Source: Halothiobacillus sp. (lineage in GTDB: Bacteria > Pseudomonadota > Gammaproteobacteria > Halothiobacillales > Halothiobacillaceae). From it: 64,000 bases of DNA. The notes below the pieces were generated by a model. The model saw only the letters and a list, made by a program, of their open reading frames with translations, ran no database searches and was not told the DNA's origin. The stretch covers positions 1 to 64,000 of the forward strand of contig JAGDVP010000025.1 of assembly GCA_023255735.1 (NCBI GenBank), written 5' to 3'. The position numbers and the translations under genes are program-made. Below, in pieces: positions 3,395-5,261 of the stretch (positions are counted from its first letter, which is position 1; each line of letters opens with the position of its first letter).

Positions 3395-3471
3395 TGGGCC
3401 GTCGCCAAGTTGGTTAAGGCACTGGGTTTTGATCCCAGCATACCTAGGTTCGAATCCTAGCGGCCCAGCCA
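3395..3471 (+). tRNA. tRNA-Gln (anticodon TTG)
   Basis: A complete cloverleaf can be drawn: the acceptor stem TGGGCCG pairs with CGGCCCA, the D-arm contains GCCAAGTTGGTTAAGGC, the anticodon stem CTGGG/CCCAG encloses a TTTTGAT loop with anticodon TTG, and the T-arm CTAGG-TTCGAAT-CCTAG is perfect. The discriminator is G and the CCA end is encoded. It reads CAA codons. The prs start codon is only 14 bases past the CCA, so prs probably shares the tRNA transcript and is released by tRNA processing. Confidence 0.97.
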
Positions 3472-3484
3472 AATTCCCGGAAGA

Positions 3485-4444
3485 ATGATGACAATCCAAA
3501 GAACACTGATGGTATTTTCTGGCAACGCAAACCGAGCCTTGGCTGAGCGTGTTGTCGAAAGCCTTGATATACAACTTGGTCAAGCCACAGTTTCCCGATT
3601 TAGCGATGGCGAAAGCTTCGTTGAAATTTTGGAAAATGTTCGCGGACGCGATGTTTTCATCATTCAACCAACCTGTGACCCCACCAATGACAACATCATG
3701 GAACTCATGGTTATGGTGGATGCGTTACGCCGAGCATCGGCTTATCGCATTACAGCGGTCATCCCCTATTATGGTTACTCACGTCAAGATCGTCGCGTTC
3801 GCTCCGCTCGGGTGCCCATCAGCGCGAAAGTTGTTGCCAACATGCTCCAAAGTGTCGGCGTCGATCGTATTCTCACCGTTGATTTACACGCCGATCAAAT
3901 CCAGGGGTTTTTCGATATTCCCGTGGATAATGTCTACGCCTCGCCTATTTTACTCGGGGATATTTGGCGCCAAAAATACAACGATCTCATCGTCGTATCG
4001 CCTGATGTAGGGGGCGTGGTTCGGGCACGTGCGGTAGCTAAACGCCTGGATGATTCCGATCTTGCCATCATCGACAAACGCCGCCCGCGCCCGAATGTCT
4101 CTCAAGTAATGCACATCATAGGCGAGGTGCGCGATAAAACCTGCATCATTGTTGATGATATGGTCGATACCGCTGGCACGTTGTGCAAGGCGGCAGGCGC
4201 ACTCAAAAAACATGGCGCCAAAAAAGTGGTGGCTTACGCCACGCATGCCATTTTGTCTGGCGACGCCATCCATAACATCAACACCTCTGATTTAGATGAG
4301 TTAGTTATAACCGACTCCATTCCACTCAAGCCTTGCGCGCAGCAATGTCAAAAAATCCGGGTACTTTCGGTGGCTGGCATGCTGGCTGAAACCATTCGCC
4401 GAATCCATACCGATGAATCGGTGAGCTCCCTCTACAACGACTAA
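3485..4444 (+). CDS. prs: Ribose-phosphate pyrophosphokinase (PRPP synthetase)
   Basis: Makes 5-phosphoribosyl-1-pyrophosphate from ribose-5-phosphate and ATP for purine, pyrimidine, NAD, histidine and tryptophan synthesis. At 319 residues it is a class I enzyme. Visible signatures are [13 protein letters not shown] at the N-terminus, [10 protein letters not shown], the metal-binding [14 protein letters not shown] and the PRPP loop [13 protein letters not shown]. Two ATGs lie in tandem (3485, 3488). Its 14-base distance from tRNA-Gln implies co-transcription with the tRNA. Confidence 0.97.
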
Positions 4445-4499
4445 ACCCAATCATCCGGGTAAACCCGCTGATTTTCTAGCTATTCTCGGGCTATTCCTT

Positions 4500-4505
4500 T
4501 ATAAT
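4500..4505 (+). promoter_or_regulatory. Possible -10 element upstream of rplY
   Basis: A perfect TATAAT hexamer sits in the prs-rplY gap. No convincing -35 element occurs 16-18 bases upstream, so this is a weak promoter call. A start six to eight bases downstream would place the transcript 5' end at the first arm of the 4509-4553 inverted repeat. Confidence 0.35.
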
Positions 4506-4508
4506 TTC

Positions 4509-4553
4509 GCGCCTTATCAAGTATGGCTATTTGGATCAAGCTTGATAAGGCGC
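4509..4553 (+). promoter_or_regulatory. Perfect 13-bp inverted repeat in the rplY leader
   Basis: The arms at 4509-4521 and 4541-4553 are exact reverse complements, separated by 19 bases. No T-run follows, so it is not a plain terminator. Its core GCCTTA/TAAGGC recurs in the second leader hairpin at 4588-4625, which allows alternative pairing between the two structures. Confidence 0.6.
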
Positions 4554-4587
4554 TGGGGCTGTTTGGTCGCGAACATCCCCCATCACA

Positions 4588-4632
4588 CTGGCCTTAGCGC
4601 GATTTACCGCGCGCTATAAGGCCAGATGTTTT
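4588..4632 (+). terminator. Terminator/attenuator hairpin before rplY
   Basis: CTGGCCTTA (4588-4596) pairs perfectly with TAAGGCCAG (4617-4625). Inside it GCGCG pairs with CGCGC, leaving a two-base bulge and an 8-base loop. TTTTT follows at 4628-4632, and the rplY ribosome-binding site GGAG is at 4641. It may terminate prs transcripts or act as an attenuator controlling rplY. Confidence 0.65.
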
Positions 4633-4652
4633 TAAAATTTGGAGTTTATTTT

Positions 4653-5261
4653 ATGTCTAAAGAAACGTTTGTACTTAATGCCAAGCGTCGGGATGATCAG
4701 GGGAAAGGTGCGAGCCGCCGCCTGCGTCACGAAGGCCGCATTCCGGCGATTGTTTATGGCGGGGGCGTAGCGCCCCAAGCGATTACCATTGAGCACAATG
4801 AAATCATCAAGCACTTAGAGCACGAAGCGTTTTATTCGCATGTGCTTGAATTAAATCTTGATGGCGCCACCACCCAAGTTATTTTGCGTGATTTGCACCG
4901 CCACCCATTCAAACCGTCGGTCATGCATGCCGATTTTCAGCGCGTTTCGGCCAACGAAACTTTGCGTGTTACAGTGCCTTTGCATTTCTTGAACAAAGAT
5001 ACCTGCGTCGGCGCGAAAGCCGGTGGTTTGGTACATATCGGCCTAACTGAAATTGACATTGACTGCCTGACAAGTGCTTTACCTGAATTTATTACGGTTG
5101 ATCTTAAAAACCTTGATATTCATCAATCTTTGCATTTAAGCCAAATTACCTTGCCCGCCGGCGTTAAAATCCCGGCATTAGCGCAAGGAGCTGAGCATGA
5201 CGCTGCGGTGGTTACCATTCACGCATCAAAGTTGGATAAAACCATCGAACCCGAAGTCTAA
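4653..5261 (+). CDS. rplY: 50S ribosomal protein L25, CTC/TL5 long form
   Basis: L25 binds 5S rRNA in the large ribosomal subunit. At 202 residues this is the two-domain general-stress (CTC/TL5) form: the 5S-binding domain has RRLRHEGRIPAIVYGG, and the C-terminal beta domain contains LVHIGLTEIDIDC. I chose the ATG at 4653 because GGAG lies eight bases before it; an in-frame ATG at 4626 has no such site and lies just beyond the leader hairpin. The gene sits between prs and pth, as in many Proteobacteria, and its upstream region holds two strong hairpins that may control it. Confidence 0.95.
   Translation: MSKETFVLNAKRRDDQGKGASRRLRHEGRIPAIVYGGGVAPQAITIEHNEIIKHLEHEAFYSHVLELNLDGATTQVILRDLHRHPFKPSVMHADFQRVSANETLRVTVPLHFLNKDTCVGAKAGGLVHIGLTEIDIDCLTSALPEFITVDLKNLDIHQSLHLSQITLPAGVKIPALAQGAEHDAAVVTIHASKLDKTIEPEV

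Follow-up and report, generated by a model that had tools for sequence, protein, structure and literature searches.

Behind prs on a 64,000 nt stretch of Halothiobacillus sp. DNA (contig JAGDVP010000025.1, forward strand; hereafter, the window) lies rplY, the gene for ribosomal protein L25, and the gap between the two genes holds several potential RNA hairpins. This raises the question of whether the hairpins simply end the prs transcript or form a regulatory leader of rplY and, if a leader, what it senses and how it acts. A first-pass annotation had proposed a four-segment, attenuator-like leader built from two hairpins with shared sequence, with termination of prs transcripts as the alternative. 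The features of the region are collected in Table 1.

Table 1. Features of the prs–rplY region, in window coordinates.
Feature	Position	Strand	Basis or remarks
tRNA gene directly upstream of prs	3395–3468		Rfam tRNA, 63.5 bits
prs (ribose-phosphate diphosphokinase), gene upstream of rplY	3485–4444	+	ORF
Weak hairpin and TTTT directly after the prs stop codon	4450–4475	+	-6.7 kcal/mol, z -2.2, 5/200 shuffles equal or better
TATAAT, putative -10 box of the rplY promoter	4500–4505	+	Followed by GC-rich discriminator GCGCC, 4509–4513
H1, 5' hairpin, beginning just ahead of the predicted start site	4509–4553	+	Folding, complementary arms
Window-only alternative helix, about 4552–4562 with 4587–4598	4552–4598	+	Would displace both H2 and H3 in a transcript cut short within H3
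H2, putative L25-leader hairpin, hexaloop GGUCGC at 4565–4570	4555–4580	+	Conservation, covariation, folding
H3, intrinsic terminator, stem to 4629 and U-run 4629–4633	4586–4633	+	Folding, U-run
Canonical Shine-Dalgarno GGAG of rplY	4641–4644	+	Sequence
rplY, long bL25, 202 aa	4653–5261	+	ORF

From prs to rplY the order is the TATAAT box, H1, H2, H3, the U-run, the GGAG and the start of rplY, and the region 4450–4680 folded as one piece gave a z of -5.7. The rplY product is one that we take to be a two-domain, CTC-type bL25; this description of long bL25 comes partly from section 3.8 of a review (PMC10931766). The prs protein is 66–98% identical to that of the prs adjoining rplY in 27 of 29 other loci (tblastn). 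The tRNA gene upstream of prs has the anticodon TTG (Gln) as judged by eye, and other family members likewise carry a tRNA gene upstream of prs. DNA similarity across the prs–rplY gap was found in 6 of 96 genomes, all of the same genus, so conservation of the primary sequence stops at the genus; since this similarity fades, the rplY upstream regions of relatives were lined up by gene.

The stretch 4500–4655 is most likely the promoter and 5' leader of rplY. All 18 loci examined in the family's two best-sampled genera (L002–L014 and L016–L020) have TATAAT or TACAAT followed by GCGC upstream of the hairpins, and class-wide a -10-like box was found in 59 of 174 loci, compared with 14% in shuffles. 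Transcription of rplY would start near 4511–4513. GC-rich discriminators are typical of stringently controlled promoters, and the promoter of E. coli rplY is under stringent control. A simple consensus scan picked up no sigma-70 promoter at 4500 and no terminator at 4588–4633, mainly because there is no good -35 box and the stem of H3 is bulged. As the TATAAT lies upstream of the structures, a transcript starting there must pass H3 to reach rplY, which argues for an rplY leader and against the suggestion that the second hairpin merely ends prs transcripts. The weak hairpin directly after prs, upstream of the rplY promoter, is a possible prs terminator; most of 12 family members have a post-prs hairpin of some kind, but its sequence varies and the U-run is often missing.

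H1 and H3 are the two hairpins of the first-pass annotation, which had described them accurately. The arms of H1 (13 nt, 4509–4521 and 4541–4553) are 100% complementary and those of H3 (14 nt, 4588–4601 and 4612–4625) 86%, the hairpins share GCCTTA (at 4511 and 4591) and TAAGGC (at 4546 and 4617, within ATAAGGC at 4545 and 4616), and the TTTTT noted after the second hairpin is the U-run of H3. In folding energy both lie far beyond dinucleotide shuffles, at -25.1 kcal/mol (z -6.4) for H1 and -23.3 kcal/mol (z -5.0) for H3 (4588–4625), with 0 of 200 shuffles equal or better in each case. Family members have a stem of different sequence at the H1 position, and a stem followed by a U-run occupies the H3 position in eight of nine congeneric leaders, L006 having no U-run.

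The assignment of these structures to an rplY leader stands, given the promoter-like box that precedes them in all 18 loci, but the 1:2 / 2:3 / 3:4 geometry does not. The complement needed for the 2:3 pairing, TAAGGC at 4546–4551 with GCCTTA at 4591–4596, does exist in the sequence, and H3 with its U-run, below the conserved TATAAT, supplies what an attenuator has between promoter and gene, namely an intrinsic terminator. However, at -8.8 kcal/mol the 6 bp 2:3 helix is not set apart from shuffled sequences, which average -7.7 (p 0.31), and H1 (13 bp) and H3 are both much stronger. Nor is it kept in relatives: the lowest p among 18 family leaders was 0.13, and an alignment of the four closest leaders shows the TAAGGC/GCCTTA pairing to be broken in L003 and L005. 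There is also no conserved leader peptide: of 11 further listed leaders from the family, ten have no ATG-started ORF of at least eight codons, and that of L007 is unrelated. A four-segment attenuator in which the TAAGGC at 4546 pairs with the GCCTTA at 4591 is thus very improbable. A 24-codon ATG ORF at 4523–4597 was considered as a leader peptide and rejected; it has no Shine-Dalgarno sequence.

Between these two hairpins sits a third, H2, which is absent from the first-pass annotation. H2 has the least remarkable folding energy of the three (4553–4582, -14.0 kcal/mol, z -2.8, 2 of 200 dinucleotide shuffles equal or better), yet it is the hairpin that is kept far beyond the genus. Among 144 relatives, rplY was present in 137 genomes and 130 loci entered the main count (G050 and G024 were left out); a hairpin with a GGTCGC loop lies 30–130 nt upstream of rplY in 103 of these loci, and the exact loop is missing in 27. 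Five loci added after the main count include one with the loop. In a set of named gammaproteobacterial loci that partly overlaps the first (five of its hairpins recur unchanged in the 130-locus set), GGTCGC is found 10–200 nt upstream of rplY in 77 of 80 cases. These include Halothiobacillus, Pseudomonas, Halopseudomonas, Marinobacter, Alteromonas and Pseudoalteromonas, as well as Xanthomonadaceae, Legionellaceae and Chromatiales, and the only named loci without the leader hairpin are those of the methanotrophs Methylobacter, Methylococcus and Methylovulum (L166, L170 and L178). The position is also restricted, with 109 occurrences of GGTCGC at 30–119 nt upstream of rplY and 18 in the remaining bins to 450 nt (distances for loci L037–L136 are off by one base).

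The loop occurs in two forms, UGGUCGCG (137 loci) and UGGUCGCAA, which has one extra base on the 3' side (37 loci). Where the base after the loop is not A, at least six of eight stem pairs can form at 103 of the 137 motif sites and at 30 of 354 GGTCGC sites elsewhere; for the subtype with A after the loop, the corresponding counts are 34 of 37 and 24 of 72. An ungapped alignment (A2) was made of 97 distinct hairpins, kept of 102 after duplicate 30-mers were dropped. Locus L015 lies outside both A2 and the 174-locus set, and five named loci with already-included hairpins are also outside the latter. Loop invariance in A2 is by construction, because its rows were chosen for GGTCGC. Across the 10 bp stem, 79.5% of cells are standard pairs compared with 52.6% in shuffles, and the covariation score of the 97 hairpins is 0.733, where shuffles give 0.260 and slid controls no more than 0.343. 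Both-sided changes occur in nine of the ten pairs, a count no higher than in shuffles, and further pair types number 43, barely above the 41.2 of shuffles. By these sequence comparisons, H2 is a conserved RNA hairpin. In several A2 rows (L051, L070, L077 and L102) the stem is interrupted directly beneath the GGUCGC loop by an internal loop in which GAA faces GGGA or a similar sequence; its form, C-GAA-CC / GG-GGA-G, possibly represents tandem G.A pairs.

The tie between H2 and rplY was followed with a covariance model (R1) built from A2, with no E. coli sequence included. In the window's own genome the best match of R1 is 4553–4582 (26.2 bits), and the sole other match scores 18.9 bits. In 27 of 40 genomes, mostly with in-sample leaders, R1 ranks the rplY leader first genome-wide; in G019 and G009 the rplY leader ranks below the best match, and in the other genomes the best listed match is elsewhere, or there is none. 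At E ≤ 1 on 78 named loci, three of which carry hairpins already in R1, the model returned 48 rplY leaders and four places elsewhere, and it misses many leaders of the shifted subtype with the extra 3' loop base.

An operator of E. coli rplY has reportedly been described by Aseev, Bylinkina and Boni (2015). The E. coli leader reads CCUGUUGCUG-GGUCGC-CUGUAGCAGG and has the same GGUCGC hexaloop hairpin as H2, so the remark of the first-pass annotation that E. coli uses a different leader has to be revised. According to section 3.8 of a review (PMC10931766), L25 represses its own gene at translation via this leader, an irregular hairpin and a weak Shine-Dalgarno sequence (GAGA) being needed, and the leader features are inherent only to species with short bL25; a passage of the same review adds that changing GAGA to GGAGG abolished control. 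The L25-Gammaproteobacteria leader was found again, as a passage of Eckert and Weinberg (2020, PMC7247131) indicates. The Rfam model RF03131 matches the E. coli rplY leader at 46.9 bits, and the best match of R1 in 5 kb of E. coli falls at the same place (15.2 bits, E 0.014; same hexaloop, with standard pairing at 9 of the 10 stem positions).

RF03131 itself gave no match in the window between 4400 and 4800 up to an E value of 5 (gathering score 34.1 bits). It was over the cut-off in none of the 144 relatives under strict filters, with none of the listed weak matches at rplY, and had no match at the cut-off in the loci of 20 relatives scanned directly. The sole Rfam match on the window at a relaxed threshold, SprD, is meaningless. 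In short-bL25 loci the GGUCGC loop is present in six of eight, three of which are matched by RF03131. Class-wide, the Shine-Dalgarno sequence contains GGAG in 141 of 174 loci and is GAGA alone in one of 174. As far as the compared genomes go, the loop hairpin is not limited to short-bL25 species, whereas the weak Shine-Dalgarno sequence is. The element in the window appears to be a divergent variant built like the E. coli leader, homologous to it or at least so built, and is not filed under RF03131. Its branch is marked by long bL25 and GGAG, and in the window's family also by a putative upstream promoter and an intrinsic terminator before rplY. A literature search with limited coverage of subscription papers found no published description of the leader in long-bL25 species.

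The H2 leader is most likely regulatory, an L25 autogenous leader of Gammaproteobacteria with long bL25. For the window, we favour, with a probability of about 0.6, an rplY leader in which H2 would be the L25 operator and repression autogenous, here likely through termination at H3; we infer that the ligand is L25, that its effect is repression and that H2 acts through H3. A transcript from near 4512 would form H1, H2 and the terminator H3 in turn before reaching the Shine-Dalgarno sequence. L25 in excess of uptake by 5S rRNA would bind H2, the putative operator with its invariant GGUCGC hexaloop, and so lower the expression of its own gene. The strong GGAG and the terminator between operator and Shine-Dalgarno sequence make transcription termination at H3 the likely output in the window's family, while in E. 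coli the output is at translation. The window's assembly (93.5% complete, 29 contigs) yielded no 5S rRNA gene, which was probably lost with collapsed rRNA operons, and we know of no convincing likeness between H2 and the L25 site on 5S rRNA.

Counts across the class bear on how far this output extends. An intrinsic terminator distinct from the leader hairpin, lying between it and the start codon, was detected in 42 of 174 loci (18 of 522 in shuffles), and in 36 of 174 the leader hairpin itself ends in a U-run, compared with 47 of 522 (9%) tail-shuffled controls. With neither type found in 96 of the 174, termination cannot account for the output throughout the class. Spacing matters, in that a separate terminator is found in 36 of 61 loci with more than 70 nt from loop to start and in none of 70 with 55 nt or less. 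The prevalence of GGAG here, set beside the loss of E. coli control with GGAGG, argues for another output level. A conserved pairing that would make H2 and H3 mutually exclusive, as expected of an antiterminator, was not seen in the 44 terminator-bearing loci (median p 0.66, three of 44 at p ≤ 0.05).

The 96 loci with neither terminator and the lack of a conserved antiterminator would both suit a reading in which H2 is the L25 operator but acts on translation or mRNA stability, H3 being a leaky, non-regulatory terminator of prs read-through, and the E. coli leader does act at translation (PMC10931766, section 3.8). We consider it unlikely, as the promoter-like box is upstream of H3, so that rplY transcripts also pass H3, and H2 ends 60 nt before a Shine-Dalgarno sequence that is strong; a separate weak hairpin with TTTT, moreover, already follows prs, upstream of the promoter. 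Improbable, too, is an antiterminator specific to the window, in which the 5' strands of H2 and H3 pair with each other, so that binding of L25 to H2 would release H3 for termination. The duplex has p 0.005, the lowest of the 44 loci and the floor of 200 shuffles, and in a truncated RNA it is 2.0 kcal/mol better than keeping H2, but H2 is replaced in none of eight congeners and one such match among 44 tests can be chance; the helix may reflect chance or a recent gain. Somewhat less probable again is that H2 has a different ligand or function, such as binding a protein other than L25, pairing of its loop with a second RNA, or protecting or processing the mRNA, or that 4512–4633 is a free small RNA. 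The promoter and terminator would yield a discrete RNA of about 120 nt, and L25 as the ligand of H2 is itself deduced; against this, the motif accompanies rplY throughout the class, and its E. coli match is a leader reported to answer to L25.

On a broader scale, we make a tentative proposal, to which we give somewhat less than even odds: the GGUCGC-loop, L25-sensing hairpin would be ancestral to most Gammaproteobacteria and would have been fitted with different outputs by lineage, as riboswitches have been. The output would lie near the Shine-Dalgarno sequence in E. coli and at close spacings, at a separate terminator in the window's family, and elsewhere in the hairpin itself, acting as terminator with its loop gripped by L25.

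Outside the class, in loci L254–L293 of the same phylum (e.g., L259, L260, L264 and L268), presumably Alphaproteobacteria, a different conserved hairpin loop, CACCCCUGGAGG, is found upstream of rplY, with the variants CAUCCCUGGAGG and CACCCUUGGAGG. In 20 of 26 loci, with L253 in addition, a loop of this type lies 55–169 nt ahead of rplY, and its flanks tend to pair. Eight such loci searched against Rfam gave no match at E 0.5, and the hairpin is a candidate for a second, unrelated L25 leader. A third hairpin upstream of rplY, ACGGGYCRACCCGUC, occurs in three of 28 loci (L252, L256 and L289).

The published view ties the features of the E. coli leader to short bL25, and the same loop precedes rplY in long-bL25 lineages (Pseudomonas, Marinobacter, Alteromonas, Xanthomonadaceae, Legionellaceae, Chromatiales and Halothiobacillaceae), where the Rfam model is blind. 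If L25 binds H2, the element would be unusually widespread for a ribosomal-protein leader and would offer a natural experiment on the change of output of one RNA sensor, and GGUCGC is a six-base loop open to direct testing.

Among known systems, trp-type attenuators resemble the window's leader in having successive hairpins that end in a terminator, but the latter is without conserved 2:3 pairing and without a conserved leader peptide. The closest likeness in the sensing element is to RF03131, which shares a hairpin upstream of rplY with a GGUCGC hexaloop and a stem of about 10 bp in the same register. The two differ in the protein encoded (a long bL25 of 202 aa in the window, a short single-domain bL25 with the RF03131 leader), in the Shine-Dalgarno sequence (GGAG, 60 nt after H2 with H3 between, compared with GAGA directly after the hairpin in E. 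coli), in the terminator that stands between hairpin and Shine-Dalgarno sequence in the window, and in the pair adjoining the loop, which is U.G or U-A in the window's branch and G-C in RF03131. In general layout, the leader resembles that of B. subtilis rplJL (PMC4538822), where leader hairpins and then an intrinsic terminator precede a ribosomal protein gene, as in the window. The B. subtilis leader involves a different protein and a different fold, and the window's leader is without a conserved antiterminator, but the presumed autogenous logic would be that of termination-type ribosomal-protein leaders such as rplJL.
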